A DNA stretch of 64,000 nucleotides from Pagrus major (lineage: Eukaryota > Chordata > Actinopteri > Spariformes > Sparidae). The DNA is taken from NCBI RefSeq assembly GCF_040436345.1, contig NC_133221.1, positions 2,946,618 to 3,010,617 on the forward strand. Direction: 5' to 3'. How positions within the stretch are numbered: the first letter of the stretch is position 1; each line of letters starts with the position of its first letter. Under the pieces are notes generated by a model. That model searched no databases, had not been told where the DNA came from, and was given only the letters and a program-made list of their open reading frames with translations. Of the stretch, positions 37,106-64,000 are shown in pieces. A program made the position numbers and the translations under genes.

Positions 37106-37139
37106 TGATCACATACAAGGATTAAACTGTTTGGTTTTT

Positions 37140-38580: not shown

Positions 38581-38774
38581 CCTATGTTGATAGAGTTCAT
38601 TTCAAGAAAACAAGTATACCTGCAGTATAAAGTAGAACCTGTAGTTTAATGAGTGTGTACTTTATAGTGTACTTTCACAAACTGAAGTATATAACCAGTA
38701 CCTATAAGTTACTGTAGTTTTGATTGTCAGTTGATTTCTGAACAACATAACTTCTTTAATATGTCTTTCTAGAG

Positions 38775-40878
38775 ATGGCATCAGCTCTTCCTCTCATTGT
38801 GCTCCTCTGTTTGACCGTTGGACTGTTGAACGTAAGTGATGATGCATCTTGCAAGAGTTTTTAAATCATTTGTTTTATTCATAAGACCTACATTAAACCC
38901 TTTCTACTTCTCTGACATTATTATTTCATCCTCAGCAGTATGAAATTCTCACTTTGTCCCTTCTTCACAATAATAATCAGTCTTCTTCGTCTACTTCTAC
39001 TTATTAATTTAACTACAGCAACTACCTTCCAAGCTGATTTAATGAATGTCTTGTTCATGTTCACAGGTGTCTACTGCTAAAGGTAGGTAGCTGCAACCTT
39101 CAACTGTGTCCAGTGGCAGAAGTTCATCCAGAACACATTACATCATCTGGTTTGCTCGAGTCATTACACAGAGCAGTTCACCAACACACCACCACCTACT
39201 CTGATCAATGCACAAAATGCTGTTGTCACTCTGTGATGGAGCGATAAAATTACTCAATGTCATCAGACTGTTTATATGAACCTCTGACACAAATTATTTC
39301 ATGTCAGCCCAAGTGATTACAGCATCTTTATTAGTTATTCTGATGTTGTGGGAGGGTGTTAAAGTTTATTTCTCTTAAAGGAGAGACACTACAGGAGAAG
39401 CCATCATATATTCATACATTAATCCATAACATGTCTTCTTTCAGACTCAAGAAAACAACTAAAATACACATTTATGTGTCTATTTTAGTGCAGATTTCTG
39501 TTCTACACATTTAAATGCAAATTATCACATGTTTAATAGATAGTTCCTCATTGGCTATATAATTTCAGAAAACTTGTAATACAAAAAAATAAGTTTTATG
39601 GTGATATTTATTAGTTTAAATAATTCCACCCATTTACCCAAAGTGTCATTATTTATGTCTGAAGTTGTACAATAGTTTTATTATTTGCATATTTAAGTCT
39701 ACAATTTCTGAAAATTCTGAAATAATTGACTTAAAGGTGCAATATGTAAGAATTGTTCACCTGTTTAATTTATACTCAAAACAAATACAGGCAGCATATA
39801 ACCAGAGTTACTGCTAACTGCTGCTAACTGTATTCTGTTACATGCATGATTGTAGCTACTGTTACCGTGTTAGCTAAGTTAGCCGTGAAGCTAGCCAGAC
39901 AACCGGGGGAATGTTGGTGTTTACACTGCTTGCACAGGAGCTCCAGATTGCTGGGAGAAAGAGGTTTTCAGGCCCAGTGCTAGCTGCTTTGCATGCTAAC
40001 TGTAGATCTCTCTAACCAAATACATAGACATAGTTGCAGCCTGTCCTCCTGGTTGGACTCCGATTGGCTCGCGCTGTTTCATCGTTCAGGACACAAAACT
40101 GTCGATGGCTGATGCAGAGGTGCGTAGTTAATCGCTCTTTATTGGCCTTCAGGTAGTCGATGATCACGTTTTAGCTTTTCAGAACCTGTTTGTATTTCTC
40201 TCCTCTGTTATTCTTCTCTGCGTACATGCTCTCACATGTTCCATATTGATTTTGTGTCTCTGTTTTCTCCCACCGTCTCCTCCATCAGCTCAACTGCATT
40301 CGTCTTGGTGGGAACCTGGCCTCAATCCACAACGATGGTGAAAACTTAGTAGTTAGGGGAATGATTAAAAGAGCCTGTGGCTCTTATGTGTTCGCCTGGA
40401 TTGGGCTGTCTGATGCAATTCAGGTGAGTCCTTTTTACACTTGTAGACTTCAGACAAATCTGTAACCTGCAATCAATGCAGCTGTTCAGCAATCAGCTTT
40501 CTCTTTCAGGAGGGAAAGTGGCTGTGGACTGATGGGTCGAGGTTGGTCTTCACTCGCTGGTTGCGCGGTCAGCCCGACAACCACCTTGGAAAAGAACACT
40601 GTGCCCATATCAACTTCAAAGGTACGAATATTATTTCTAAACTTCCTAATGGTTTTTTATTGAGAAGAAAAATGGATAAAAAATGTGTGTATGTTTTTCT
40701 CAATTTGTCTGCAGAACAAGCATTATATTTAAATGCACTCTGATCAGTTCGACAAATCATTAACTGCAAAGATGTTTGTGCTCTTGTACTCAGCGACTCT
40801 TTTCCTTTTACAGGGGACTACTGGAATGATTTACCATGTAACCGTGCATTGCCTTCTGTTTGTGTGGGGAGACAGTGA
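38775..40878 (+). CDS. secreted C-type lectin, copy 1 (QPD, galactose-type)
   Basis: Coding exons: 38775-38831, 39067-39082 (a 16-nt microexon), 40040-40119, 40289-40423, 40510-40621 and 40814-40878 (TGA). Splice sites and phases are all consistent; the product is 154 residues. Residues 1-25 are a signal peptide (MASALPLIVLLCLTVGLLN, then VSTAKA), leaving a mature single C-type lectin domain starting CPPGW. Visible family marks: the N-terminal Cys pair of long-form CTLDs (CPPGW, GSRC), LNC, GNLASIH, WIGL, the Ca2+/sugar site QPD with KEHC, WND, and final Cys residues LPC and SVC. An extra Cys (RACG) could pair between chains. The closest type is the fish galactose-specific, nattectin/ladderlectin-like group. 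QPD predicts galactose binding by established CTLD rules; EPN would mean mannose. It probably acts outside the cell in recognition of microbial sugars. Intact, no frameshift. Confidence 0.94.
39731..40036 (+). mobile_element. 3'-truncated MITE at lectin exon 4 acceptor, copy 1
   Basis: Starts TTAAAGGTGCAATATGTAAG, a known fish MITE end. Its other end is missing: the element runs straight into GTTG|CAG, the exon 4 acceptor. Copy 2 is the same (50,656-50,967); copy 3 keeps the full element. Confidence 0.65.
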
Positions 40879-41196
40879 TGCCTCCATCCTCCATCTGCCC
40901 TCATGTGTACCGAGATGATGCCACTTCCACCACGACGTTACTTTGTCTTTGATGTTACACTTAAATAGTAGCAAACTTTCTCTGATGATTCACTTTTCAT
41001 TTAATGTTTCAAATCAAAATACCACCAGATCAGTAAATGGCAGCATAGGAAATTGCCTCACTAAACTATGATTTAAAAACTTGCTCTCAAGTGAGCGGGA
41101 CAAAATGATTTTTCTTGTGATTTTTCTCATTTACTGTCATATATTCACTATCTTTAATCTCAATCGTAATCAATACAAAAAACAAAAATACACTGA

Positions 41197-41202
41197 AATA
41201 AA
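41197..41202 (+). terminator. candidate poly(A) signal, lectin copy 1
   Basis: AATAAA 319 bp after the stop codon; the homologous sites are 52,131 in copy 2 and 63,984 in copy 3. Confidence 0.5.
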
Positions 41203-43095
41203 AATAATCTTTAAGCATAGTGTGTTTCTGTAATGTTGTTTGTGTGTGTGTGTGTTTGTGGAAGACTTGTATTATGTGACCAGACTGTCACACTTACTGT
41301 CAGAGAGGTGAAACTATCAGACACACTATGACAGACAAAACTCACAGCAGAGATGTAAAAAGTATTTTTAACTTACAGCCCCCCTCCATTGTATTTTGAT
41401 ATTTTTATGATATTTCTGAGTCCTTTCTTGGCAGTGTTGATGAGGCAAATATTTTCAGACAAATCACATAATTTTGTGCTCAGAGTCACTAAATTTAAGC
41501 TGTTGCTAATATAGAATAATATATTCAGCAGATAAGTTGTCTAGTGGCAGTAAATGTACAGTACAGGTTACAGTTTGACCATGAATAAACTCTGCAGCTC
41601 CTCAATACACAAGAAGAACTTCAGTTTGAGTGACAGCGAGCACTATCCCTGCTAATACTCATGCTGCTTGTCCATGCCAATATCGATGCTGTTGCTAATC
41701 CATGCTAGTGATGTTGATGTAGCTATAACGGCAGTCTGGTTATGATGGTGATAACTATTTATGACTGCTAACCACGTATTCTCTGTTTGAGGAAGAACGT
41801 CGACCTTTAGACAGGAATAAAAACTGACTGGAGGGGGCTTTAAGTGAAAGTATGAATACCACACTGTGAGTATATTCAACTACAAGTAAAAGTACTGCAT
41901 CCAAAACGTACTGTTTACAGTATTATCATTAAAATCCACTTCAGCTGTTACCATTCCTGGAAATTGATGTAATATTATCTTAAAACGTCTGTCCCCGTCT
42001 AGCCCAAAGTTGATTCAAAGCTGTTGTTGAACCATTTGGAGTACAGACATGGTTTTGGGCTCTTTTGAAAGGTTATAACCTGATTTTTGTTTTACCCCCA
42101 AGCTGTCAGAAGCTCTGTAAGTGCTTCTGTCATTGATCTATACGAGTCCGAACACACTGAATTATTTATCTGTTTATCTCACCTGAATTTTTCTAACTCA
42201 ACATAAGTCTGCAGATGACCTGTAACTGCCCCTGTTAGCTGTAAACAGCATATAGTCTTAAATAGCCCAAGTTGTAATTTAAAATGCAAATTTTGACATC
42301 ACAAGCTTTTATTCAGAACTCTGACTGAAGTATTTTCTCTAAATAAGTTAATTTCATAAACACAATGATTCTGTATGAATGAGGGCCTAAGGCAGCGCAG
42401 TGCAAATTAATAATCCACCCACACAAACGTAACAGTTTATAAACCTGTCCTTTGAGAACCACATGTTGCTGAAAAAAGTCAGAAAAGCAGCCTGTTTTCA
42501 GTTTGTGATGATGATTCCAGCTCATCTAGAGGGTTTTTAAAGAGGTTTTTAGCTCCATAAGAGGAGAATTTTTTGGACACAAAGGATCACTTCATCCCTC
42601 AGTTTATCACAAACATACAAAATCAGCACATCTGTAGATGCATGGTTTTTACTGGACAGGAAGGGGATGTAATATTGTAACCTGAGAAGTAACTCAGCTG
42701 CCAGACAAATGTAGTGAATAAAAAGTACTGTTGATGAAGGTTCTCAGTCATCAGGGTCATGGTAAATCTAAGTGCTGATACGACTCAATGCTAAAGCTTT
42801 CTAACCACAACCAACAGTACATTTGGTGTTGGACGACCTAAATAAACCAATCAATCCATGTCGAGGCATACAGAGACTTTCTACAGGAACCTAGTTGAAT
42901 ATTTCCCAGTGACATTTATTTTCCTGATCATATGTAGGATCAGAGCTCTGTGGGTTGGATAAAGGAAGTTGCAGCGTACCAAAGATATTCTTTTAATTTA
43001 TTATTTAAGTCCATTGTCATAGATCATAGTTTCTTATATCCACTAAATACTGTCACTCTTTCAGTCTTATTTTTTGATTTCACTCTCTGTAACAG
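41203..43095. other. spacer from lectin copy 1 to SUEL exon
   Basis: No coding exon recognised on either strand; in particular I looked for other rhamnose-binding lectin exons and found none. 41,551-42,100 is absent from unit 2 and includes a MITE fragment near 41,840-41,930. The rest matches 52,137-53,580 closely. Confidence 0.55.
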
Positions 43096-43231
43096 ATGGC
43101 GGTGTGATCGGTGTGCAGGCAGCTCTGTATGGACGTGCAGACAGAGAGACCTGCAGTGAGGGAAGACCTCCACAACAGCTCACCAACACAAAGTGCTCTC
43201 AGCAGGGCACTGTGGACGTCCTCAGGAGGAG
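43096..43231 (+). pseudogene. orphan SUEL (rhamnose-binding lectin) exon, unit 1
   Basis: A 136-nt open exon with a good acceptor (TCTCTGTAACAG|AT) and donor (AGGAG|GTAGGC), phase 1 in and phase 2 out. It encodes [19 protein letters not shown] then [14 protein letters not shown] and [11 protein letters not shown]. This is the core of a SUEL/Gal_Lectin domain: the YGR motif followed by D-x2-TC, with the Cys spacing of fish L-rhamnose-binding lectins. The flanking exons expected in that family (signal peptide, the domain's first strand with its Cys, and the C-terminal DPC-x-GTYKYL block) are not visible in the unit. It is either a decayed gene relic with one exon still open, or an exon used by another transcript. 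No stop or frameshift. Confidence 0.85.
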
Positions 43232-43274
43232 GTAGGCACAATAAAGTCCAAACTGTCCTCATGTGCATCTTTGA

Positions 43275-43910
43275 TTAAAGCAACACTATGTTGTTTTTTG
43301 TTCCATTTGGCGCAACACACCTGTCATAAAAACAAATACCAGGTGATTGTAACAGTTTCTCAGATGAAATGTTACCTTACGTGCTAACTACAAACAACAG
43401 TCAGCATGTAGTAACAATGCTGCGTCTTGAAGTGAACATGCATGCTTTTTCCCACGCCGCAGTCAAAGTTTTCACAAGCACCACACACAACTCAAAATAG
43501 TAACAGCATGTTGAGCTAACGTAACCTGAACCAGAGACCATAACATCTGACTTTAACATGCTACTGGCTGATTATCTTTCCAAATGGGCTTTTATTCAGG
43601 GAAGCTGCACAAATGACTGAAAGCCGGTCTGAGACTCGTGTCTCTTTCTTGGCTGCTCTCTTTCTCTCCTCCGAGTCTCCTCAGACATTGTCCTCTTTGG
43701 TCTCTTCACCTCTGTCATGATGTCTGTAGAGGCTGCTGAGCCTGGGTATGTTGCCCACTCTACGGAGGGTTGATCCAATGTAAACATTTGACATGAAGCC
43801 AAATTCCAGACCGGACTAGTAATACAGAATTTTAGCACTAGGTGGCGTACGTGACTCAGCCTCTTCTGAGTGGAACTTAGTGAGTGTAGTGGCACCACAA
43901 TCTGTGTCAG
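43275..43910. mobile_element. MITE-like repeat, unit 1
   Basis: Begins TTAAAGCAACACTATGTTGT, nearly the same terminus as the intron 1 MITE, so probably the same superfamily. A 100-codon minus-strand frame inside (KRPKRTMSEETRRREREQP) also occurs in unit 2 and has no recognisable function. The unit 2 copy is at about 53,760-54,395. Confidence 0.45.
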
Positions 43911-44697
43911 GCATGTTCAATCTGAAAACTGTGAAATCTTTGAGGTACATTTTCTCTGGTTAGGTGGGGGTGTCAGAGGTGTGACCCACTCAGTAGTCGT
44001 GCACTGATGAGAGCAGCCCTTGCCCCTTTTTTGGGTGAAACCAGCCCCTTGAATTTGACTGGCAGTAAATGGCTATTAGGAGCCTGAATCTGATGGCCAG
44101 TCAGGCAAACAATGATGTTATGTTGTTGTTGATCTACAATCTGCGTCACTATACAGTATAGAAAAAATGTAAATAAAAACAAAGAACAACTGATGTTGTG
44201 TTAAAAAAATGAACTCATTCTAAAAATAGAGCTTTGTATCGTCCTCTTCATGTTTTTGTTTTTGTCAGATTAATATGGTTGTATCTGTATCTGCCACAAC
44301 AAACAGATAATTATCTATTAAAAAAATAGATTCATGTTATTGGCCTTCTTCACATGGTCCTTTCCTTTTCACTGATGTAGTTTGACCCGCAGCTGTGGCA
44401 AGTGATGTCATCCACCACCCCAGTTTTCCCACCTGGGGGGTGTTTAGGATGTAACAGCAGAGATATTGGCTACATCTTCTGACTGTCCAGTCTGTGAACA
44501 GTCCCTGTTGGGTTAGTAGTGTCAGTTCTGGTCTTGAATCTCAGTGGAGGATTCCCGTCGTGTGTCATCCACAGAAGAAGTCCATGGGATACGACCAAAA
44601 GCTTCGGCAACGGCTAAATAAGTTATCTTACCCCACGATCATTAATGAATGCTCTATATCACATTATGTCTTTTTAATGCACAGTAGGCTTGCATCC
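43911..44697. other. unassigned spacer, unit 1
   Basis: Nothing recognisable. A phrase 'ggtacattttctctggt' recurs at about 47,442, suggesting an unrecognised repeat. Confidence 0.45.
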
Positions 44698-44705
44698 CTC
44701 TACAT

Positions 44706-46115
44706 CAGGCCTATTCAACTTCTTTTGTAGAAGGGTCAGATTTGAAATAAGTGACGTGCTAAGGGGCCGGACTTTTACGTTACCTATATCTGCCCTTTAC
44801 AACTTGTAATTTAAATGTGTTAAAACAATGTACTCATAGTTTTCACAATTGAAAGAGAAATTATGTGTACAAAAGTGCAGAAGAAGAAAAAAACAATTCA
44901 CCTTTTTAATCTTAGATGTAGGTTGTCAGCTTGATTTTTGTGGTTGTACAGTTGTCAAAAGTTTTACATACACTTGTAAAGAACATGTATATCATGGCAG
45001 TCAGGTGAGGCAGTTCAGAGGAGAAAGTAAATACAAAGCGCTGAAAGAGAAATTTGCTACTGCAGAGTAAAAGTGCAGAGGTGATGACTTGCACACGAGG
45101 AAATGTTCTTCAACTCTGTTGTTTTTGTCACCTCCTGACCAGAAGTCACATGCAAAATGACTGATGTTGAAGAAATGCAGCTCGGGGCAGGTGAAAGGAA
45201 TTAGCACACAACAACCGTTGTCATGTTTGTTGTGTGGAAACACTTTAGTGTCAGTCAACATGCTACAGGACAAAATGAAGCTCCTGACAGGTGTCCTGCC
45301 ATTGAAAGCATTCAGGTTGGCAGTTAATGTATCAGTGCATATTAATAATGAGCTACAGTTTGTCATTAGCCAAAATAAATAAATAAACTAGAATGGCAAA
45401 TAAACTAGAGTGCATACCTCTGCCAAGGCCCAACAGTCCCCTGTAATTCAATCAAGCAGTTAGAGTGCACACCACGACCGAACAGACAGACAAACATTCA
45501 TGAATCTTGGTTCAATAATGAATTTAATTTGGGTCTTCTGAAAATGTGTGTATATTCCCTCTGCTTAAACAGCCTGGGTTAAAACTCTTTTATAAAATAA
45601 GAGTATTTTTCACCTAGTAACAGATGGTTGCTACATACATCTTGTGATGCAGTTTCTTGGACACATCCTCAGTGATAGTACCTGGGGTCACGGGGGGTTT
45701 CGGGTCTTTCAACTTCAGACCCCCCCACCCAGGCGACCCGACCGGGAGTGATCAGTTCCTGGCCTGTGTCCAAGACGCTGTCGCCCACTGCTTGTCCCTC
45801 CTGATCCACAGCCATCGTGAGGCTCTCTCTGCAGCCTCGGATGCTGCACTGATGGCTTTTCTCTTGCGTGCTCCGGTGATGCCCAGGAGGCTGTAGGCCT
45901 TCCAGAGTGACTTTCCTGCAAAGCCCCTTCCTCCAACTTCAACGGGAAAGCACCTCGCACGCCACCCCCGTCTGCGGCACTCCTCCACCAGCTCCGCGTA
46001 TAAAGACATAACTAATGAAAGGGGCTAATTAGCCTACTAGCAAAATGAGTTATGGGCCAGAATGAGGTTGTTAAAGTGACACATTTGCCCCTGGGCCTCC
46101 AGTTGAATAGGTCTG
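44706..46115. mobile_element. hAT-type DNA transposon, non-autonomous, unit 1
   Basis: Flanked by an exact 8-bp target duplication CTCTACAT (44,698-44,705 and 46,116-46,123). Ends are CAGGCCTATTCAACT and, in reverse complement, CAGACCTATTCAACT: a 15-bp inverted repeat with one mismatch. An 8-bp duplication with CAG ends defines the hAT superfamily. No transposase is recognisable inside; a 121-codon minus-strand frame (45,001-45,366) is unassigned. An R2-like fragment is nested at its right end. Confidence 0.9.
45640..46007 (-). pseudogene. R2-like retroelement, C-terminal fragment, unit 1
   Basis: The minus-strand frame reads YAELVEECRRRGWRARC then FPVEVGGRGFAGKSLWKAYS and RASRWLWIRRDKQW. 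This is the extreme C-terminus after the restriction-like endonuclease of the fish R2-type reverse transcriptase, the same protein as in unit 2 but cut at the Tyr codon before AELVEEC. The cut (CGCGTAT|AAAGACATAAC) is shared with the distal end of the unit 2 copy. No RT domain remains. Confidence 0.8.
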
Positions 46116-46400
46116 CTCTACATGATGCATTTGATTTCATTGCTTTTTAAGTTGTTTTACTCATTTAGGCACTATCATCAGAATGGAACTGTATTGTTCA
46201 CTTTTTGACAGTTTATACAGTTTTTGTACTTGAGCAGTGTATTTGCACAAGCGACGGGTTGGACTCATGTGCCACAGTGTGCTCAGAAAAAGCCTCTACA
46301 TGCTTTATTCTTTAATACTTTATTGTAAGGGTGCAAAAATCTTAATTAATAACAAAATAATATTAACAATGAAGATGATAAAAATCTAAAATAATGACAG
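46116..46400. other. spacer between hAT element and LTR, unit 1
   Basis: AT-rich, no feature; the right part is deleted in unit 2. Confidence 0.5.
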
Positions 46401-47007
46401 TGTTACTTGTGGGCTGGTTGTTCTCTCTCTCTCTCTCCCTCCCTCTGTTGCTCTCTGGCGCCCTCCCTTCCTTTGTCTGTGTTTATCTTCCAGGAAGACA
46501 CACCTGCCCAGGTGTGTTGCAATCACCTGATGACAGCATTTGAGGAGGACTGAGTGGAAAGCTCACTCTCTCTGGAGCCGCTGCCCAGCTCACATCAGAA
46601 GGGGGATATTCTTCCCTTCTTCTCTTTGTTGTCTTTTTCCCCGCAGGTTTTTTCAGTGCTGGGGTTTTGTTTTGTTAGTTTGTTTTTAGTTTGGGTTGGA
46701 GATCACCGGTAGTCCAGTTTTCAGTTTTCTTTGGTTCATTTAGGGTTAGATTACTTTATCCTTTCCCTTTTTGATAATTTAGAGGGGATAACTGGGTGCG
46801 ACGGCCCACTGCGTGGCTGGCTCAGTGATTTCCCCTTCTTTTGTTGATTTCAGCTGGGATCTCCATCCTCTTTTGGTAGGTACTTTGCTTGAGCTTCAGT
46901 GAATGATTTAAAATAAACTTTTGTTCAACTGTTCGTTTGGTGTCTGAGCGTCCTTTTAAATATGTTGCACCCTCTCTGCGAGCCTTTAGGTTAGAGGGTC
47001 CGTAACA
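46401..47007 (+). mobile_element. solo LTR (gypsy-type), unit 1
   Basis: Starts TGTTAC and ends GTAACA, with an exact 5-bp target duplication GACAG on both sides (46,396-46,400 and 47,008-47,012). It carries a poly(A) signal (AAAATAAACTTTTG near 46,910) followed by GGTGTCTGAGCGTCC, typical of the R/U5 part of fish gypsy LTRs. There is no internal region, so it arose by LTR-LTR recombination. Confidence 0.85.
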
Positions 47008-47012
47008 GACAG

Positions 47013-48024
47013 GAAATGAGAAAAATAACAGGTTAGTATGGTGGTGCACATACCTACTGTATATACATACATATGAAGTATTCATTACCTTCACATATAT
47101 TTATTTATATACATGCCATCTGCACATGCCTACACACAAACACAAGAAGAAAAAGTGACCCAAACTCCTCTCGACTGAATGTGTCAATATTATTAAACTG
47201 TGTTCCACAATCTGTTTATTCCATCTTATCAAATATTCCATATTTGAAACAGGCGTATATTGTTGGCAGTTACTGGAAATACGGCACACATGTAGACATT
47301 TGACTTGTTTCAGATACCACGACTGAACTGCAGATTAAATATGGCTTTAAGAGATAAGGGAGGACAGTATGCCAACAGCTTTGACTGCTTGGAACGAATC
47401 CACGACAGAAGACTCATGATGTTTGTTTTAGATTTGTTTTCAGGTACATTTTCTCTGGTATAGTGGGTGTGTCAACAGCCAGTAGTCCTGCATGAGCAGA
47501 TCTAGCTCCTGTTTTGTTTGACTATATTTGACTTTTTCATGCTCTCGTTCATATGATGTGTTTGCAGAAGCATGTGCTCTACTGCAATGATGACAGTTAA
47601 GGTTCAGTCAGCTAGATCACAGGCTCAAACGTGGCAGTGTAACACACAGTGCTGAAACTGTCTTATTGAGTTACAATGTTCACTGTATAAAAAACATCAA
47701 CGTTTTCTGATTCCAGCTTCTTAAAAGTAAATATTTTATATTTATTTTTTTATTCCGTAGATGCATGTTTGGATGATTCTGCATAACGACAGCAGATTCA
47801 ATGATGACAAGCCAGAAGAATGACATTTGAAAGTAGTTTTATGCCTGCGCTGGTGATCGCTCTGGCTGGAGGCGTTTTGTTTTCAGGTTTTCCATATATA
47901 CGTATGTCCCGATGTTGTGAACCCAACATCTTAGGAACACCTCGAGGGAATTTCCCCACAGTTGGCAGAAACGTCCACTTGGACCCAAGGATGGACTGAT
48001 TTGACTTTGGTGGTGTCATGTTGC
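47013..48024. other. tail of unit 1
   Basis: No gene. About 47,820-48,020 contains 'acacctcgagggaatttccc' and 'aacgtccacttggaccca', a repeat I recognise as widespread in fish. It forms the boundary against unit 2. Confidence 0.5.
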
Positions 48025-48619
48025 TGATCACATACAAAGATTATAACTGTTTGGTTTTTTTTGTCTTAATGAATGAATCTTTGTTTTGCTGATATTGATT
48101 TTCAGATGATTGTTGTTGCAGCATGTGGTGAAGCTCTCTATCAGTCCTCTGTAAAAATGGCCTCCAAGTGTAGCCGGCATGTGTCTGACTGGAAGTTATT
48201 CTCTGGAATCACACAGGTCAATACTGCTACTTCCTGTTGCGTGGAGGCAAACAAACGCAAGGCAGTAATTATAGTTTTAGTATGTGAAGATCACATTACC
48301 AGAAAGAGGCGACAGGTTGTCCTTTGGAAGGAAACTTTATTTATTTTCTCCGCAAATATATTGATACTAGAATCAAATTTCATATGAACCACCACTATGT
48401 GTAACTAGAAGGTGTACTACGACAGTTAACACTATTGTTTTTGACGCTGTATTGTCTGGAGCTGATGTCTCAAGGAACCGGATTGATATCATAAAATTGT
48501 TTAAGGAACAAATTTACTCAAGGCTGTGGCAGTAGATAAAACAATTTTCACCAGAACAATAGACAGTCTCGTGGTCAGTGGATGACGAGCAAGATGAGGA
48601 AACAAGCACCCAGAAAAAC

Positions 48620-48701
48620 TATATAAAGGCCGTGTTCCCTTTGCCAAGACATCCTTCAACCTGCTACTGCACGAGCAACTTCATCTGATCATCATAACAC
48701 G
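48620..48701 (+). promoter_or_regulatory. TATA promoter and non-coding exon 1 of lectin copy 2
   Basis: TATAAA at 48,622-48,627 in the same context as copy 1; exon 1 ends at 48,701 (AACACG|GTAAGG). Confidence 0.8.
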
Positions 48702-49193
48702 GTAAGGTTTTAACTTTGTCTTTCGTCACAGCACCAGCTTCACAGAAAAGACTCTGCTTCTACTATTGATTACTGCAATTACCCAGTGCTGATTTACAGT
48801 TAATTGTAGAAAATCAAAATATATCAGCTGATTGCATCGTGTCCACTTAATGAGGCCATCTCTTTTTAGGGTGTAGTTGTTTACAGTGCTACCTTCCCTT
48901 CCAAAAAAGAAGTTTATTTGAGTGTGCTATTTATATTTTCAGTTTATTTTTCATGCACTTATCAGAGATAAACGTAACAAAACTATACATAAGTATACAC
49001 GGTTTATACTGACAAGTGTATAGAAGAGTTTAAGAATATTTGGATCATACATATTACTTAATATTTTGCTCAAGAATTAATTAATTTTTTCTGTGTTTGA
49101 CTGTATCCATTTATTTTTATATATAAGAATGTAAAATTATACCTAAATAAACACCCTGTGGTACTTTAAAGTGCAAAATACTATATACAAATA

Positions 49194-49514
49194 TTAAAGA
49201 GGCACTATGTAGTTTTGGAGAAGAAATTCAAACTCAGAATTGTTAAATGTACAATATTACTGAGGTAATAATACAATCTCAGAAACATTGATTTCTTTCC
49301 ATCAGTGAATAAACAAGCTGTTCTCAGAGGAAAATAAGGTCCCAGAACACTGTTTGAAGCTAGAAAGGTGGCAGGGTCCGCCACCTATAAACAAGGTAAA
49401 ACAGTATAAATTGTGTTGTCCTTGTTTGTTTAGGCAGAAAAAAAAAATCAGCCAATGAAGATCTTTCTCTGCTGATTTAAAATTCTTCACCAAAACTACA
49501 GAATGCTCCTTTAA
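49194..49514 (+). mobile_element. MITE in lectin intron 1, copy 2
   Basis: Orthologous to the unit 1 element at 38,272, with left end TTAAAGAGGCACTATGTAGT. Confidence 0.75.
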
Positions 49515-49708
49515 CCTATGTTGATAGAGTTCATTTCAAGAAAACAAGTATACCTGCAGTATAAAGTAGAACCTGTAGTTTAATGAGTGTGTACTTTATA
49601 GTGTACTTTCACAAACTGAAGTATATAACCAGTACCTATAAGTTACTGTAGTTTTGATTGTCAGTTGATTTCTGAACAACATAACTTCTTTAATATATCT
49701 TTCTAGAG

Positions 49709-53580: not shown

Positions 53581-53716
53581 ATGGCGGTGTGATCGGTGTG
53601 CAGGCAGCTCTGTATGGACGCGCAGACAGAGAGACCTGCAGTGAAGGAAGACCTGCACAACAGCTCACCAACACAAAGTGCTCTCAGCAGGGCACTGTGG
53701 ACGTCCTCAGGAGGAG
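53581..53716 (+). pseudogene. orphan SUEL (rhamnose-binding lectin) exon, unit 2
   Basis: Same acceptor, donor, phases and length as the unit 1 exon. I see three substitutions: two silent (CGT/CGC, GAG/GAA) and one Pro to Ala in GRPPQQ (here GRPAQQ). Still open, with the YGR motif and all cysteines kept. No partner exons recognised. Confidence 0.85.
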
Positions 53717-55189
53717 GTAGGCACAATAAAGTCCAAACTGTCCTCATGTGCATCTTTGATTAAAGCAACATTATGTTGTATTTTGTTCCATTTGGCGCAA
53801 CACACCTGTCATAAAAACAAATGCCAGGTGATTGTAACAGTTTCTCAGATGAAATGTTACCTTACGTGCTAACTACAAACAACAGTCAGCATGTAGTAAC
53901 AATGCTGCGTCTTGAAGTGAACATGCATGCTTTTTCCCACGCCGCAGTCAAAGTTTTCACAAGCACCACACACAACTCAAAATAGTAACAGCATGTTGAG
54001 CTAACGTAACCTGAACCAGAGACCATAACATCTGACTTTAACATGCTACTGGCTGATTATCTTTCCAAATGGGCTTTTATTCAGGGAAGCTGCACAAATG
54101 ACTGAAAGCCGGTCTGAGACTCGTGTCTCTTTCTTGGTTGCTCTCTTTCTCTCCTCCGAGTCTCCTCAGACATTGTCCTCTTTGGTCTCTTCACCTCTGT
54201 CATGATGTCTGTAGAGGCTGCTGAGCCTGGGTATGTTGCCCACTCTACGGAGGGTTGGCCCAATGTAAACATTTGACATGAAGCCAAATTCCAGACCGGA
54301 CTAGTAATACAGATTTTTAGCACTAGGTGGCGTACGTGACTCAGCCTCTTCTGAGTGGAACTAAGTGAGTGCAGTGGCACCACAATCTGTGTCAGGCATG
54401 TTCAATCTGAAAACTGTGAAATCTTTGAGGTACATTTTCACTGGTTAGGTGGGGGTGTCAGAGGTGTAACCCACTCAGTAGTCGTGCACTGATGAGAGCA
54501 GCCCTTGCCCCTTTTTTGGGTGAAACCAGCCCCTTGAATTTGACTGGCAGTAAATGGCTATTAGGAGCCTGAATCTGATGGCCAGTCAGGCAAACAATGA
54601 TGTTATGTTGTTGTTGATCTACAATCTGCGTCACTATACAGTATAGAAAAAATGTAAATAAAAACAAAGAACTGATGTTGTGTTAAAAAAATGAACTCAT
54701 TCTAAAAATAGAGCTTTGTATCGTCCTCTTCATGTTTTTGTTTTTGTCAGATTAATATGGTTGTATCTGTATCTGCCACAACAAACAGATAATTATCTAT
54801 TAAAAAAATAGATTCATGTTATTGGCCTTCTTCACATGGTCCTTTCCTTTTCACTGATGTAGTGTGACCCACAGCTGTGGCAAGTGATGTCATCCACCAC
54901 CCCAGTTTTCCCACCTGGGGGGTGTTTACGATGTAACAGCAGAGATCTTGGCTACATCTTCTGACTGTCCAGTCTGTGAACAGTCCCTGTTGGGTTAGTA
55001 GTGTCAGTTCTGGTCTTGAATCTCAGTGGAGGATTCCCGTCGTGTGTCATCCACAGAAGAAGTCCATGGGATACGACCAAAAGCTTCGGCAACGGCTAAA
55101 TAAGTTATCTTACCCCACGATCATTAATGAATGCTCTATATCACATTATGTCTTTTTAATGCACAGTAGGCTTGCATCCCTCTACATCA
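53717..55189. other. repeat block of unit 2
   Basis: Matches 43,232-44,697 of unit 1, including the MITE-like repeat at about 53,760-54,395. No coding sequence. Confidence 0.5.
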
Positions 55190-55197
55190 GGCCTATT

Positions 55198-58008
55198 CAA
55201 CTTCTTTTGTAGAAGGGTCAGATTTGAAATAAGTGACGTGCTAAGGGGCCGGACTTTTACGTTACCTATATCTGCCCTTTACAACTTGTAATTTAAATGT
55301 GTTAAAACAATGTACTCATAGTTTTCACAATTGAAAGAGAAATTATGTGTACAAAAGTGCAGAAGAAGAAAAAAACAATTCACCTTTTTAATCTTAGATG
55401 TAGGTTGTCAGCTTGATTTTTGTGGTTGTACAGTTGTCAAAAGTTTTACATACACTTGTAAAGAACATGTATATCATGGCAGTCAGGTGAGGCAGTTCAG
55501 AGGAGAAAGTAAATACAAAGCGCTGAAAGAGAAATTTGCTACTGCAGAGTAAAAGTGCAGAGGTGATGACTTGCACACGAGGAAATGTTCTTCAACTCTG
55601 TTGTTTTTGTCACCTCCTGACCAGAAGTCACATGCAAAATGACTGATGTTGAAGAAATGCAGCTCGGGGCAGGTGAAAGGAATTAGCACACAACAACCGT
55701 TGTCATGTTTGTTGTGTGGAAACACTTTAGTGTCAGTCAACATGCTACAGGACAAAATGAAGCTCCTGACAGGTGTCCTGCCATTGAAAGCATTCAGGTT
55801 GGCAGTTAATGTATCAGTGCATATTAATAATGAGCTACAGTTTGTCATTAGCCAAAATAAATAAATAAACTAGAATGGCAAATAAACTAGAGTGCATACC
55901 TCTGCCAAGGCCCAACAGTCCCCTGTAATTCAATCAAGCAGTTAGAGTGCACACCAAGACCGACAGACAAACAAACATTCATGAATCTTGGTTCAATAAT
56001 GAATTTAATTTGGGTCTTCTGAAAATGTGTGTATATTCCCTCTGCTTAAACAGCCTGGGTTAAAACTCTTTTATAAAATAAGAGTATTTTTCACCTAGTA
56101 ACAGATGGTTGCTACATACATCTTGTGATGCAGTTTCTTGGACACATCCTCAGTGATAGTACCTGGGGTCACGGGGGGTTTCGGGTCTTTCAACTTCAGA
56201 CCCCCTCACCCAGGCGACCCGACCGGGAGTGATCAGTTCCCGGCCTGTGTCCAAGACGCTGTCGCCCACTGCTTGTCCCTCCTGATCCACAGCCATCGTG
56301 AGGCTCTCTCTGCAGCCTCGGATGCTGCACTGATGGCTTTTCTCTTGCGTGCTCCGGTGATGCCCAGGAGGCTGTAGGCCTTACAGAGTGACTTTCAAGC
56401 CCCTTCCTCCAACTTCAACGGGAAAGCACCTCACACGCCACCCGTCTGCGGCACTCCTCCACCAGCTCCGCGTATTTCTCACTCTTCCTCTCATTGGCTT
56501 CCTCCATCCTCTCCTCCCAGGGCACCGTTAGCTCCAACAAAATGACCTGCTTGGATGACTCTGAGAGCAGGACGATGTCTGGTCTAAGGCTGGTTTCCAT
56601 GATGTTATCAGGGAATCGAAGCTGTTTTCCCAGGTCCACCCTTAGCTGCCAGTCCTTCGCTGCTCCCAGGAGGCCTGTTTGGGCTTTTGGTCTGGAGGGT
56701 AGTTGTTCTCCAGCTCGCACGAATGGAATTTCATGCCTTGTGTTGATGGACTCGGCAACCGCCTTCAGCACCTGGTCATGGCGCCAGCGATAGCGACCAT
56801 CTCCAAGTGCTTTAGGACAGCTGCTGAGGATGTGCTCCAGAGTTTCTCTTACTTGGCACAAGGGACACGCTGGAGTATCGACCTTGCCCCAACAGAAGAG
56901 GTTCGACGGGCTGAGCAGGACATCATAGACAGACTGAATGAGGAATTTGATGCGATAGGGTTCTGCCTTCCACAACTCAGGCCACGAGATCTTCCTATTC
57001 ATGGCTTCTTCCCATCTGGTCCATGCGCCCTGTTGTCTCAATCCCACCGTCTGGCTTGCACGCTGTTCCTCGACCCCGGCCTTCACTTCGCGTTGAACCA
57101 GGTCCCGCCTTTCCTTGCCCTCAAGTTTGTTGTAGTGGATTGTCGGAATTTTTCCCAGACCTGCACGGCCAGTTGCCACAGATCCCACAAGCTCTTTGTG
57201 ACGCAGCCGTGATTCTGCCTGGTCCACGGCCTCCTGTGCTCTCCATTTTCTGCCAGTCCTCACCTCAATGCCCACTTGAGATACTTTCAGGTCCTTGGAT
57301 TCCCTGTATTGGAGCACCTCCCTTGCTCTGGTAACCATGAACTCCTTAGTAGGGCTGTTGATGGGGAGCGTCAGCTTGTTCTTGTTACCGTAGAGGGCGA
57401 TGCTGCTTAGGCTTCGAGGTAAGCCCAACCAACGTCGCAGGTGGCTGCTGACCCTCCTCTCGAGTCCTTCCACAGTCGAGATGGGAAATTCGTATACCAG
57501 CAATGGCCACAGTATTCTAGGCAGAATGCCATGCTGGTATAACCACGCCTATTCCCCGGAAGCCCTGACTTGTCGACTGTTGTCAGCCAACTCTCCAGTT
57601 GTTCATTGGTTGCCCTGATGGAAGCGGCATCCTTTAGGGAGCAGTCAAAGGGTTTTCCGAGGCTCTTCACGGGTTTCTCTGTGACTGATGGTATGCGGGT
57701 ACCTCCTAGAGAGAAGTGGAACCGGTTGATCACCTTCCCTCTCTTCAGGACCAGAGACCTGGATTTTTCCGGCTTGAAGCGCATCTGAGCCCAGATGGTA
57801 AGTCTCTCCAAGCCCGGGAGGATCCATCTGCATCCAGGAACTGTTACTTGCACGCCACCCCCGTCTGCGGCACTCCTCCACCAGCTCCGCGTATAAAGAC
57901 ATAACTAATGAAAGGGGCTAATTAGCCTACTAGCAAAATGATTTATGGGCCAGAATGAGGTTGTTAAAGGGACACATTTGCCCCTGGGCCTCCAGTTGAA
58001 TAGGTCTG
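55198..58008. mobile_element. hAT-type transposon with nested R2-like copy, unit 2
   Basis: Same 15-bp terminal repeats and 8-bp duplication CTCTACAT (55,190-55,197 and 58,009-58,016) as in unit 1, but 2,811 bp long instead of 1,410. The difference is the longer nested retroelement. Confidence 0.9.
56125..57893 (-). pseudogene. R2-like non-LTR retrotransposon, RT thumb to endonuclease, broken
   Basis: The minus strand encodes the C-terminal half of a reverse transcriptase with a restriction-like endonuclease. From the 5' side (57,850 downwards): RFKPEKSRSLVLKRGKV, PSVTEKPVKSLGK, SWLTTVDKSGLPG; a frameshift near 57,545-57,556; then WLYQHGILPRILWPLL and a 362-codon frame (57,503-56,415). In that frame a CCHC knuckle (C-x2-C-x7-H-x4-C) lies at residues 213-229, RHDQVLKAV follows, and the endonuclease signature PD at 308-309 with Glu 324 in LLELTVPWEER. 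A two-base deletion (CCC for CCCCC) near 56,441 shifts the C-terminus after EECRRR. The polymerase core (FADD region) is missing. At its 5' end (57,851-57,893) it abuts a second copy of its own C-terminal coding segment. Non-functional. The family is R2-superfamily by domain layout; the exact clade is unsure. Confidence 0.85.
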
Positions 58009-58233
58009 CTCTACATGATGCATTTGATTTCATTGCTTTTTAAGTTGTTTTACTCATTTAGGCACTGTCATCAGAATGGAATTGTAGTGTTCACTTTTTG
58101 ACAGTTTATACAGTTTTTGTACTTGAGCAGTGTATTTGCACAAGCGACGGGTCGGACTCATGTGCCACAGTGTGCTCAGAAAAAGCCTCTACATGCTTTA
58201 TTCTTTACTACTTTATTGTAAGGGTGCAAAAAT

Positions 58234-58819
58234 CTTTCTTCTCTCTCTCTCTCCCTCTGTTGCTCTCTGGCGCCCTCCCTTCCTTTGTCTGTGTTTATCT
58301 TCCAGGAAGACAAACCTGCCCAGGTGTGTTGCAATCACCTGATGACAGCATTTGAGGAGGACTGAGTGGAAAGCTCACTCTCTCTGGAGCCGCTGCCCAG
58401 CTCACATCAGAAGGGGGATATTCTTCCCTTCTTCTCTTTGTTGTCTTTTTCCCCGCAGGTTTTTTCAGTGCTGGGGTTTTGTTTTGTTAGTTTGTTTTTA
58501 GTTTGGGTTGGAGATCACCGGTAGTCCAGTTTTCAGTTTTCTTTGGTTCATTTAGGGTTAGATTACTTTATCCTTTCCCTTTTTGATAATTTAGAGGGGA
58601 TAACTGGGTGCGACGGCCCACTGCGTGGCTGGCTCAGTGATTTCCCCTTCTTTTGTTGATTTCAGCTGGGATCTCCATCCTCTTTTGGTAGGTACTTTGC
58701 TTGAGCTTCAGTGAATGATTTAAAATAAACTTTTGTTCAACTGTTCATTTGGTGTCTGAGCGTCCTTTTAAATATGTTGCACCCTCTCTGCGAGCCTTTA
58801 GGTTAGAGGGTCCGTAACA
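58234..58819 (+). mobile_element. 5'-truncated solo LTR, unit 2
   Basis: Matches 46,425-47,007 of unit 1 and ends GTAACA followed by the target duplication GACAG. The LTR start and the left duplication are deleted. The junction is at a CT repeat (AATCTTTCTTCTCTCTC), probably a slippage or microhomology deletion. Confidence 0.8.
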
Positions 58820-59838
58820 GACAGGAAATGAGAAAAATAACAGGTTAGTATGGTGGTGCACATACCTACTGTATATACATACATATGAAGTATTCATTAC
58901 CTTCACATATATTTATTTATATACATGCCATCTGCACATGCCTACACACAAACACAAGAAGAAAAAGTGACCCAAACTCCTCTCGACTGAATGTGTCAAT
59001 ATTATTAAACTGTGTTCCACAATCTGTTTATTCCATCTTATCAAATATTCCATATTTGAAACAGGCGTATATTGTTGGCAGTTACTGGAAATACGGCACA
59101 CATGTAGACATTTGACTTGTTTCAGATACCACGACTGAACTGCAGATTAAATATGGCTTTAAGAGATAAGGGAGGACAGTATGCCAACAGCTTTGACTGC
59201 TTGGAACGAATCCACGACAGAAGACTCATGATGTTTGTTTTAGATTTGTTTTCAGGTACATTTTCTCTGGTATAGTGGGTGTGTCAACAGCCAGTAGTCC
59301 TGCATGAGCAGATCTAGCTCCTGTTTTGTTTGACTATATTTGACTTTTTCATGCTCTCGTTCATATGATGTGTTTGCAGAAGCATGTGCTCTACTGCAAT
59401 GATGACAGTTAAGGTTCAGTCAGCTAGATCACAGGCTCAAACGTGGCAGTGTAACACACAATGCTGAAACTGTCTTATTGAGTTACAATGTTCACTGTAT
59501 AAAAAACATCAACGTTTTCTGATTCCAGCTTCTTAAAAGTAAATATTTTATTTTTTTATTTTTTTATTCCGTAGATGCATGTTTGGATGATTCTGCATAA
59601 CGACAGCAGATTCACTGATGACAAGCCAGAAGAATGACATTTGAAAGTAGTTTTATGCCTGCGCTGGTGATCGCTCTGGCTGGAGGCGTTTTGTTTTCAG
59701 GTTTTCCATATATACGTATGTCCCGATGTTGTGAACCCAACATCTTAGGAACACCTCGAGGGAATTTCCCCACAGTTGGCAGAAACGTCCACTTGGACCC
59801 AAGGATGGACTGATTTGACTTTGGTGGTGTCATGTTGC
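58820..59838. other. tail of unit 2
   Basis: Nearly identical to 47,008-48,024; no gene. Confidence 0.5.
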
Positions 59839-60239
59839 TGATCACATCAAGGATTATAACTGTTTGTTTTTTTTGTCTTAATGAATGATTCTTGGTTTTG
59901 CTGATATTGATTTTCAGGTGATTGTTGTTGCACCATGTGGTGAAGCTCTCTATCCGTCCTCTGTAAAAATGGCCTCCAAGTGTTGCCGGCATGTGTCTGA
60001 CTGGAAGTTATTCTCTGGAATCACACAGGTCATTACTGCTACTTTCTAACACTATTGTTTTTGATGCTGTATCGTTTGGAGCTGATGTCTCAAGGAACCG
60101 GATTGTTTTCATAAAATTGTTTAAGGAACAAATTTACTCAAGGCTGTGGCAATAGGTAAAACAATATTAACTAAAACAACAGACAGTCTCGTGGTCAGTG
60201 GATGACGAGCAAGATGAGGAAACAAGCACCCAGAAAAAC

Positions 60240-60321
60240 TATATAAAGGCCGTGTTCCCTTTGCCAAGACATCCTTCAACCTGCTACTGCACGAGCAACT
60301 ACATCTGATCATCATAACACG
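60240..60321 (+). promoter_or_regulatory. TATA promoter and non-coding exon 1 of lectin copy 3
   Basis: TATAAA at 60,242-60,247; exon 1 ends at 60,321 (AACACG|GTAAGG). The block from about 190 bp upstream of TATA outwards is deleted compared with the other two copies. Confidence 0.8.
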
Positions 60322-60787
60322 GTAAGGTTTTAACTTTGTCTTTCATCACAGCACCAGCTTCACAGAAAAGACTCTGCTTCTACTATTGATTACTGCAATT
60401 ACCCAGTGCTGATTTACAGTTAATCGTAGAAAAACAAAATATATCAGCTGATTGCATCGTGTCCACTTAATGAGGCCATCTCTTTTTAGGGTGTAGTTGT
60501 TTACAGTTCTACCTTCCCTTCCAAAAAAGAAGTTTATTTTTCATGCACTTATTAGAGATAAACGTAACAAAACTATACATAAGTATACACGGTTTATACT
60601 AACAAGTGTATAGAAGAGTTTAAGAATATTTGGATCATACATATTACTTAATATTTTGCTCAAGAATTAACTTAATCAATTTTTTTGTGTTTCACTGTAT
60701 CCATTTATTTTTATATATAAGAATGTAAAATTATACCTAAATAAACACCCTGTGGTACTTTAAAGTGCAAAATACTATATACAAATA

Positions 60788-61108
60788 TTAAAGGGGCACT
60801 ATGTTGTTTTGGAGAAGAAATTCAAACTCAGAATTGTAAAATGTACAATATTAATGAAGTAATAATACAATCTCAGAAATATTGATTTCTTTTCCATCAG
60901 TGAATAAACAAGCTGTTCTCAGAGGAAAATAAGGTCCCAGAACACTGTTTGAAGCTAGAAAGGTGGCAGGGTCCGCCACCTATAAACAAAGTAAAACAGT
61001 ATAAATTGTGTTGTCCTTGTTTGTTTAGGCAGAAAAAAAAATCAGCCAATGAAGATCTTTCTCTGCTGATTTAAAATTCTTCACCAAAACTACAGAATGC
61101 TCCTTTAA
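60788..61108 (+). mobile_element. MITE in lectin intron 1, copy 3
   Basis: Orthologous to the elements at 38,272 and 49,194. Confidence 0.75.
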
Positions 61109-61302
61109 CCTATGTTGATAGAGTTCATTTCAAGAAAACAAGTATACCTGCAGTATAAAGTAGAACCTGTAGTTTAATGAGTGTGTACTTTATAGTGTAC
61201 TTTCACAAACTGAAGTATATAACCAGTACCTATAAGTTACTGCAGTTTTGATTGTCAGTTGATTTCTGAACAACATAACTTCTTTAATATATCTTTCTAG
61301 AG

Positions 61303-63662
61303 ATGGCATCAGCTCTTCCTCTCATTGTGCTCCTCTGTTTGACCGTTGGACTGTTGAACGTAAGTGATGATGCATCTTGCAAGAGTTTTTAAATCATTTG
61401 TTTTATTCATAAGACCTACATTAAACCCTTTCTACTTCTCTGACATTATTATTTCATCCTCAGCCGTATGAAATTCTCACTTTATGTCCCTTCTTCACAA
61501 TAATAATCAGTCTTCTTCGTCTACCTCTACTTATTAATTTAACTACAACAACTACCTTCCAAGCTGATTTAATGAATGTCTTGTTCATGTTCACAGGTGT
61601 CCACTGCTAAAGGTAGGTAGCTGCAACCTTCAACTGTGTCCAGTGGCAGAAGTTCATCCAGAACACATTACATCATCTGGTTTGCCCGAGTCATTGCACA
61701 GAGCAGTTCACCAACACACCACCAACTTCTCTGATCAATGCACAAAATGCTGTTGTCACTCTGTGATGGAGCGATAAAATTACTCAATGTCATCAGACTG
61801 TTTATATGAACCTCTGACACAAATTATTTCACGTCAGCCCAAGTGATTACAGCAGCTTTCAAGTTATTCTGATGTTGTGGGAGGGTGTTAAAGTTTATTT
61901 CTTTTAAATGGGAGACACTACAGGAGAAGCCATCATATATTCATACATTAATCCATAACATGTCTTCTTTCAGACTCAAGAAAACAACTAAAATACACAT
62001 TTATGTGTCTATTTTAGTGCAGATTTCTGTTCTACACATTTAAATGCAAATTATCACGTTTAATAGATAGTTCCTCATTGGCTATATAATTTCAGAAAAC
62101 TTGTAATACAAAAAAATAAGTTTTATGGTGATATTTATTAGTTTAAATAATTCCACCCATTTACCCAAAGTGTCATTATTTATGTCTGAAGTTGTACAAT
62201 AGTTTTATTATTTGAATATTTAAGTCTACAATTTCTGAAAATTCTGAAATAATTGACTTAAAGGTGCAATATGTAAGAATTGTTCACCTGTTTAATTTAT
62301 ACTCAAAACAAATACAGGCAGCATATAACCAGAGTTACTGCTAACTGCTGCTAACTGTATTCTGTTACATGCATGATTGTAGCTACTGTTACCGTGTTAG
62401 CTAAGTTAGCTGTGAAGCTAGCCAGACAACCGGGGGAATGTTGGTGTTTACACTGCTTGCACAGGAGCTCCAGATTGCTGGGAGAAAGAGGTTTTCAGGC
62501 CCAGTGCTAGCTGCTTTGCATGCTAACTTCTGTAGATCTGTCTAACAGAATACGTAGACATAGTTGACATATCGTCAACATTATTTCACTTTCTCTTAAT
62601 AACTTTAGTTAATATTTGAATGGTTTAAAACAAAAATTCTGACATATTTCAATGTTAATGTTAGTAATCAACTGTGGAAGTTTCATGGTGATGTCTATCA
62701 GTTAAATCATTCACGTATTCACCTCTCGTGTCTTGCCAACCCCAGTGAATATGATGTAACACTTCTGACTCAGATTAGAGCCTCATCCTGTTATATTAGT
62801 CTGTCTAACATGAAAACTGTGTTGCAGCCTGTCCTCCTGGTTGGAGTCTGTGTGGCTCGCGCTGTTTCATCGTTCAAGCCAGAAGACTGTCGATGGCTAA
62901 TGCAGAGGTGCGTAGTTAATCGCTCTTTATTGGCCTTCAGGTAGTCGATGATCATGTTTTAGTTTGTATTTCTCTCCTCTATTATTATATTATTCTTCTC
63001 TGCGTACATGCTCTCACATGTTCCATATTGATTTTGTATCTCTGTTTTCTTCCACCGTCTCCTCCATCAGCGCAACTGCATTCGTCTTGGTGGGAACCTG
63101 GCCTCAATCCACAGCTTCAGTGATGACTCCTTCATTAGGGGACTGATTAGAAGAGCCTGTGGCTCTGATGTGCGTACCTGGATTGGGCTGTTTGATGCAA
63201 TTCAGGTGAGTCCTTTTTACACTTGTAGACTACAGACAAATCTGTAACCTGCAATCAATGCAGCTGTTCAGCAATCAGCTTTCTCTTCCAGGAGGGAATG
63301 TGGCTGTGGACTGATGGGTCGAGGGTCGTCTTCACTCGCTGGGCTCGCAGGGAGCCCAACAACTCCGGTGGAAAAGAACACTGTGTCGAGATCAACTTCA
63401 GAGGTACGAATATTATTTCCAAACTTCCTAATGGTATTTTTTATTGAGAAGAAACATGGATAAAAATTGTGTTCATGTTTTTCTTTATTTGTCTGCAGAA
63501 CAAGCATTATATTTAAATGCACTCTGATCAGTTCGACAAGTTATTAACTGAAAAGACGTTTGTGCTCTTGTACTCAGCGACTCTTTTCCTTTTACAGGGG
63601 GCAATTGGAACGATAGACCATGTAAGGATGTGTTGCCTTCTGTTTGTGTGAGGAGACACTGA
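61303..63662 (+). CDS. secreted C-type lectin, copy 3 (EPN, extra cysteine)
   Basis: Coding exons: 61303-61359, 61597-61612, 62828-62907, 63071-63205, 63292-63403 and 63598-63662 (TGA). 154 residues, same phases as the other two. Identical signal-peptide exon. The sugar site is RREPNNSGGKEHC with WND, so mannose-type EPN is predicted. Distinctive changes: CPPGWSLCGSRC has an added Cys in the N-terminal hairpin; exon 5 reads RNCIRLGG and SFSDDSFIRGL instead of NDGEHSTISGM; the C-terminus is VRRH instead of VGRQ. The second half of exon 5 (IRRACGSDVRTWIGLFDAIQ) equals copy 2. With the RACG cysteine there are now eight Cys in the mature domain, so an additional internal or inter-chain disulfide is possible. 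Intact and presumably secreted. Confidence 0.93.
62258..62658 (+). mobile_element. complete MITE in lectin intron before exon 4, copy 3
   Basis: Left end TTAAAGGTGCAATATGTAAG and right end AAAAATTCTGACATATTTCA-ATGTTAA, whose reverse complement resembles the left end. About 400 bp. Copies 1 and 2 have lost its right third. Confidence 0.55.
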
Positions 63663-63983
63663 TGCCTCCATCCTCCATCTGCCCTCATGTGTACCGAGAT
63701 GATGCCACTTCCACCACGACGACGTTACTTTGTCTTTGATGTTACACTTAAATAGTAGCAAACTTTCTCTGATGATTCACTTTTCATTTAATGTTTCAAA
63801 TCAAAATACCACCAGATCAGTAAATGGCAGCATAGGAAATTGCCTCACTAAACTATGATTTAAAAACTTGCTCTCAAGTGAGCGGGACAAAATGATTTTT
63901 CTTGTGATTTTTCTCATTTACTGTCATATATTCACTATCTTTAATCTCAATCGTAATCAATACAAAAAACAAAAATACACTGA

Positions 63984-63989
63984 AATAAA
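63984..63989 (+). terminator. candidate poly(A) signal, lectin copy 3
   Basis: AATAAA at the position homologous to those of copies 1 and 2, 11 bp before the window end. Confidence 0.5.
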
Positions 63990-64000
63990 AATAATCTTTA

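Follow-up and report, generated by a model that had tools for sequence, protein, structure and literature searches.

Introduction

Genes whose exons change faster than their introns are described from snake venoms, in families that include C-type lectin-like proteins, for which the cited passages also give KA/KS above 1, changes at the protein surface and accelerated segment switch in exons (ASSET) (PMC6062510, PMC2711939). For the antifreeze genes of herring and smelt, the cited section reports a ratio of amino-acid-changing to silent substitution (dN/dS) of about 0.9 (PMC2440524). Accelerated evolution like that of snake-venom genes and conger-eel galectins is already known, and the fish array of C-type lectin-like domain (CTLD) genes described here appears to be a new case; a literature search with most subscription journals outside its coverage gave, among the matches listed, nothing recognisably on such an array in fish CTLDs. 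The array lies in a stretch of 64,000 nucleotides from Pagrus major (C7:2946618-3010617 on contig NC_133221.1, hereafter the window), and the genome searched comprised 786 Mb on 25 contigs. Taken as a whole, the region is very probably a recent tandem array of secreted single-CTLD lectin genes with an antifreeze-protein-like gene structure, diversified by positive selection plus exchange between copies. Comparison of the copies shows that, since the units duplicated, the exons for the mature lectin domain have gained amino-acid-changing differences at about seven times the rate of introns or silent sites, with the signal peptide, the splice sites and the reading frame left intact in five copies.

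Results

A recent tandem array of secreted lectin genes

Exon limits were set in five copies by the open frame together with AG/GT splice sites. Each of the three copies in the window has a TATA box, an inferred non-coding exon 1, a signal-peptide exon, a 16-nucleotide micro exon and four CTLD exons, at the following window positions.

37106..64000, + strand: tandem segmental duplication with copies 1-3, from self-comparison
37680..37761, + strand: copy 1, TATA box and non-coding exon 1 inferred from sequence, donor at 37761; TATA motif and donor are common to all three window copies
38775..38831, + strand: copy 1, exon 2, signal peptide, 57 nucleotides, by open frame and splice sites; same sequence in all five copies
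39067..39082, + strand: copy 1, micro exon 3, 16 nucleotides, by open frame and splice sites
40040..40119, + strand: copy 1, exon 4, in which the lectin domain begins; 2.5-11.3% divergence among copies
40289..40423, + strand: copy 1, exon 5 with the WIGL motif, by open frame, splice sites and copy alignment
40510..40621, + strand: copy 1, exon 6 with the QPD sugar motif (galactose-type by motif), by open frame, splice sites and copy alignment
40814..40878, + strand: copy 1, exon 7 with the WND motif and stop; a breakpoint of copies 2, 3 and 4 maps to 40814-40817
48620..48701, + strand: copy 2, TATA box and inferred non-coding exon 1, by the shared TATA motif and donor
49709..49765, + strand: copy 2, exon 2, signal peptide
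49995..50010, + strand: copy 2, micro exon 3
50971..51050, + strand: copy 2, exon 4
51219..51353, + strand: copy 2, exon 5
51440..51551, + strand: copy 2, exon 6 with the EPN sugar motif (mannose-type by motif)
51748..51812, + strand: copy 2, exon 7
60240..60321, + strand: copy 3, TATA box and inferred non-coding exon 1, by the shared TATA motif and donor
61303..61359, + strand: copy 3, exon 2, signal peptide
61597..61612, + strand: copy 3, micro exon 3, with a single silent change relative to copies 1, 2 and 5
62828..62907, + strand: copy 3, exon 4
63071..63205, + strand: copy 3, exon 5; same sequence as exon 5 of copy 4, outside the window
63292..63403, + strand: copy 3, exon 6, EPN
63598..63662, + strand: copy 3, exon 7

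According to the self-comparison, the genes in the duplication are spaced 10.9 and 11.6 kb apart, and identity is 95-99% in most long aligned pieces and 91-95% in those holding the divergent exons. Another two intact copies are located beyond the window, at C7:3018040 (+) and C7:2553170 (-); all five have an intact frame, canonical splice sites and a predicted protein of 154 residues. A diverged sixth copy is found near C7:2561870; this locus (L015, from about C7:2562700 onward) meets a run of N past exon 6, and its last exon is unread. Also, the lectin region is largely repeated about 0.45 Mb away, C7:2.53-2.56 Mb against 2.98-3.07 Mb, in both orientations and mostly at 94-99% identity. About 260 bases immediately 5' of exon 4 (window 62560-62827) are present in copy 3 and absent from copies 1 and 2.

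The translations match PF00059 at 72.4-81.4 bits against a curated cut-off of 22.6 (four of the five were submitted, all except copy 4). EPN or QPD, the following Glu and WND, which we take to be the Ca2+/sugar-site residues, occur in all five, and WIGL is also kept. Copy 1 carries QPD and copies 2-5 carry EPN, motifs that in the cited passage bind galactose and mannose, respectively (PMC5379193). The mature proteins have 7-8 Cys and a net charge from +1 (copy 2) to +17 (copy 5, strongly basic). The CTLD introns lie before C1, after WIGL and between C2 and C3, the exon boundaries falling behind codons 51 and 96 and within codon 134. Structures matched by copy 2 in the PDB include 2afp, 2py2 and 2zib, the top matches being multi-CTLD receptors.

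Amino-acid-changing differences exceed intron divergence

The first-pass annotation, based on the letters of the window, had reported that copies 1 and 2 differ at 35 of 247 bases in exons 5 and 6, and this count is reproduced exactly (15/135 in exon 5 and 20/112 in exon 6). All 24 codons that differ change the amino acid, in contrast with 0/73 differences in the signal-peptide and micro exons (2 and 3) and 4/86 in intron 5. Its counts for copies 2 and 3 also stand, with 26 differing bases (15 + 11) in 21 codons, 20 of them amino-acid-changing and one silent. Moreover, the excess extends beyond exons 5 and 6 to exons 4 and 7; for example, copies 3 and 4 differ at 15/65 bases of exon 7 and at 1/194 of intron 6. 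When amino-acid-changing bases are compared with introns 3-6 in the 10 pairs of the five copies, which are not independent, Fisher p values range from 4.6e-7 to 3.4e-30.

Among the five copies, 62 of 154 codons are variable, three of them by silent change only. Within the CTLD exons, the corresponding values are 61/130 variable codons and 2 silent-only, against 25% silent expected under random mutation (binomial p = 3.9e-6). Introns 3-6 are now 1.4-3.2% apart between copies; the three short introns amid the divergent exons differ by 0-7.3%, and the exons by up to 29%. Transitions and transversions number 31:45 in exons and 41:29 in introns, giving no clear lead. At the 5' and 3' ends of the gene alignment, large differences fall mostly within two stretches where two copies fail to align with the rest; these differences were not taken as a neutral yardstick.

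Pooled over the 10 pairs, amino-acid-changing divergence is 0.173 per site (computed with 300 sites per pair), introns 3-6 diverge by 0.025 (358/14194), and silent sites in unchanged codons by 0.023 (15/652). The ratio of amino-acid-changing to intron divergence is thus about 6.9. Silent sites inside the divergent exons thus look as young as the introns, a result that speaks for positive selection and against old exons having been imported wholesale.

Codon models and location of the selected sites

For exons 4-7, the dN/dS ratio by the NG86 method is 1.63-4.23, above 1 in all 10 pairs, so the excess that the first-pass annotation proposed to follow in more copies is retained with five. Pairwise maximum likelihood estimates of omega are 2.1-10.9, 6 of the 10 being significant at 0.05. 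Codon models, fitted by a custom script that in the site models let branch lengths change by a common scale factor only, gave for the unpartitioned alignment an M0 omega of 2.8 (p = 1.3e-4) and a likelihood ratio test (LRT) of M2a against M1a of 70.6, with 24% of sites at omega 14. Because the copies seem to recombine, the models were refitted to three partitions, each with its own best tree. Jointly, these give an M0 omega of 3.2 (p = 1.5e-4) and an M2a LRT of 49.7 (p = 1.6e-11), with 38% of sites at omega 11.5. Both counts and codon models then support the diversifying selection suggested at first pass.

In the partitioned M2a fit, 28 sites have a posterior above 0.9. Half of them (14/28) lie in codons 112-148, a segment of 37 of the 130 codons around EPN/QPD, the following Glu and WND, which we take to be the sugar site of the CTLD (Fisher p = 0.006); in the unpartitioned fit, 13 of 18 selected sites are found there (p = 4e-5). 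The other selected sites are codons 32, 33, 42 and 46 in the N-terminal part, 67, 68, 71, 72 and 86 before WIGL, 92, 98, 99 and 111 between WIGL and the sugar motif, and 154 at the C-terminus. The earlier idea that selection acts on the binding face holds for the first half of the sites, the second half being elsewhere in the domain.

Probable exchange between copies

MaxChi was run on 30 triplets with 500 permutations, and seven triplets were repeated with 20,000; five of these seven survive Bonferroni correction for 30, the best at 0.0015. In the strongest signal, copy 3 is mostly like copy 4 to the end of intron 6 and like copy 2 from the start of exon 7 (40814-40817). This likeness to copy 2 runs past exon 7, because copies 3 and 2 differ at 2/837 positions of the 3' flank. 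These statistics support exchange between copies, with one putative breakpoint at the start of exon 7. Support within exon 5 is mixed: four sites common to copies 1 and 2 all lie before seven common to copies 1 and 5 (ordering p = 0.006, by a test chosen post hoc), and the corresponding MaxChi triplet fails correction.

A second lectin family on C7

A second CTLD family repeats the pattern of the first.

C7:1709951-3064797: family 2 loci L010-L013, L019-L022 and L027-L039

It has at least 21 near-full-length PF00059 copies at C7:1.70-3.07 Mb. The CTLD is in a single exon, with another CTLD exon about 1.2 kb upstream in the two copies examined. For a comparison with the flanks, the first eight copies were used and one with an identical protein was dropped. 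Among the remaining seven, the flanks are 0.6-2.4% apart and amino-acid-changing sites 6.5-11.3%, the latter exceeding the former in 21/21 pairs (p between 4.7e-6 and 9.2e-18); in 19/21 pairs the difference between silent sites and flanks is not significant at 0.05.

Among the 135 codons of the 21 listed copies, 56 are amino-acid-variable, 5 vary by silent change only and 74 are invariant; the sugar motif is QPD in 10, EPN in 7, EPD in 2, QPN in 1 and gapped in 1. The framework is nearly invariant, and the loops around the sugar site are hypervariable and vary in length. These counts use all 21 copies; two near-duplicates were left out of the site-compatibility, silent-change and linkage tests. 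Linkage within the exon decays with distance, from a mean r2 of 0.30 within 6 bases to 0.06 beyond 150 (p = 0.0005). An excess of incompatible sites specific to the exon was considered and found unsupported (364/861 in the exon, 19/46 upstream and 62/153 downstream).

Other features of the window

An exon resembling the SUEL (rhamnose-binding) lectin domain is present in units 1 and 2 (window 43101 and 53586; E 6.4e-5 in unit 1, below the curated cut-off), with more SUEL matches at C7:3026762 and 3033642. On the minus strand, a 377-codon open frame (56418-57548) has a weak zinc-binding reverse-transcriptase match (E 1.7e-4, below cut-off) and is probably a retroelement remnant. At window 1496-1839, an 18-base unit is repeated in about 19 tandem copies.

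Discussion

Weighing the explanations

According to the explanation favored here, recurrent positive selection would act on point mutations in the loops around the Ca2+/sugar site and in other patches, the selected changes would be recombined by gene conversion or unequal crossing-over, and each copy would come to bind a different set of ligands. Most likely, the copies serve as secreted lectins for recognition, and selection by microbes would drive their ligand sets apart; by analogy with the family, microbes or their glycans would be the likeliest agent, in an arms race.

Nonetheless, several results weigh against this explanation. Of the 10 pairwise LRTs, four fall short of significance; omega is 1.43 for exon 7 fitted as its own partition, against 3.9 and 7.2 for the remaining partitions; half of the selected sites fall outside the sugar-site segment; and the site-model p values are approximate, given five copies and recombination. 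MaxChi assumes even rates, and two of the re-run triplets fail correction (copy 4 with 3 vs 5, 0.0645; copy 1 with 2 vs 5, 1.0). In family 2, silent sites are significantly above the flanks in 2/21 pairs. Moreover, in a related array on C16, tried as a third replicate, exons 5 and 6 evolve no faster than the rest of the gene (introns, flanks and other exons): 3/234 vs 25/1886 for the pair X1-X2, 1/231 vs 57/1548 for Y1-Y2, 18/231 vs 240/1524 for Y1-Y3 and 17/231 vs 260/1507 for Y2-Y3. The codons that differ there are all amino-acid-changing (2, 1, 14 and 14 in the same order, silent 0). Finally, the silent divergence of the main array drops to the intron level only once amino-acid-changed codons are set aside. 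Without this step, NG86 dS for exons 4-7, which counts steps within multiply hit codons, is 3.0-12.8% and above introns 3-6 in 9/10 pairs, and silent-type extra changes at altered codons amount to 34/333 in this family, above the intron rate.

The last two values, together with the mosaic patterns between copies, are what would be expected if exons 4-7 stemmed by conversion from old divergent paralogues and only the introns and flanks were of recent age, an origin that the first-pass annotation had raised and that we regard as distinctly improbable. In these exons, unchanged codons carry silent changes (15/652) at the level of the introns (358/14194), and on this basis wholesale import from an old paralogue was rejected as the main cause. 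Also, intron 5, which is 86 bp long and flanked by divergent exons on both sides, differs by 0-4.7%. A DNA search of the genome, for which exons 4-7 plus the introns served as query (E values up to 1e-10, frequent words being skipped), returned the five copies and one at 71%, with no close donor; this last one, the sixth copy, differs from the five by 36-45 amino-acid-changing and 7-11 silent codons of 109 in exons 4-6. Neither a donor nor a silent-site signal of such conversion was then found, and what stands of the earlier suggestion of gene conversion is that exchange between copies seems to occur and to reshuffle segments. The high dS and the extra silent-type changes are better read as repeated hits at the same codons, although some older imported codons may be among them. 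A related possibility is that gene conversion homogenised the introns and flanks while selection kept old exon variants, in an MHC-like balance, the exon excess being partly one of age. In family 2, the 364/861 site pairs of the exon that fail the four-gamete test and the decay of linkage within tens of bases point in this direction. However, silent sites in unchanged codons lying between selected codons are as young as introns, so the homogenising tracts would need to be about the size of a codon; we consider this reading unlikely, and it also requires diversifying selection. As for relaxed constraint or targeted hypermutation of the exons, their fast change would fit either. Nevertheless, relaxation could bring the amino-acid-changing rate no higher than that of the introns, far from a seven-fold excess; hypermutation would strike silent sites too; and all five copies retain their frames and splice sites as well as WIGL and WND, making this the least credible of the alternatives, with hardly any weight.

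Chromosome C7 might hold a lectin repertoire that is encoded in the germline and organised like antibody V genes. The framework would be near-identical even at silent sites and the loops around the sugar site hypervariable and variable in length; exchange over short tracts would shuffle these loops among more than 20 genes and selection would keep them diverse, with EPN, QPD, EPD and QPN specificities in many loop combinations. This idea is offered tentatively, as possible but somewhat doubtful.

If the copies bind different glycans, the array would be a fish recognition system that diversifies quickly in the germline. It also offers a clean natural contrast among genes that are nearly the same, their differences being almost confined to the binding domain, so that lectin specificity, including the switch between mannose and galactose motifs, is open to gene-by-gene testing. 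A word of caution follows for such arrays, whose duplications should be dated by introns and silent sites and not by whole exons.

Comparison with known systems

As described in the cited passages, type II antifreeze and antifreeze-like fish CTLDs share with the present genes the single secreted CTLD and the three intron positions, one upstream of C1, one after WIGL and one between C2 and C3 (PMC514892). However, type II antifreeze proteins have ten Cys, with a fifth disulfide, in the cited description (PMC2440524), against 7-8 here, and identity as a type II antifreeze protein was rejected because of this number. The sea urchin 185/333 genes are likewise a large diversified immune gene family, of a different protein, and are likened here by their published description only, in the part cited (PMC1988830). 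With the snake-venom genes and ASSET, as the cited parts portray them, this locus shares duplicated genes, coding exons faster than introns and dN/dS above 1. Replacement of short exon segments next to unchanged introns, as in ASSET, may also occur here, given the breakpoint at the start of exon 7, but the 3' flank of copy 3 goes with copy 2 as well and the signal within exon 5 is mixed. Here, in contrast, the proteins are secreted fish lectins, for which a venom role was neither looked for nor indicated, and the Ca2+/sugar-site motifs are kept, whereas the snake-venom CTLD proteins have lost sugar binding according to the cited survey of Fugu CTLDs (PMC514892). Finally, the conger-eel galectins congerins I and II are also fish defence lectins, for which the cited text gives dN/dS above 1 after duplication and a changed sugar specificity (PMC3269628); those are two genes with a galectin fold, and the present case comprises CTLD-fold arrays of 5 and at least 21 copies.

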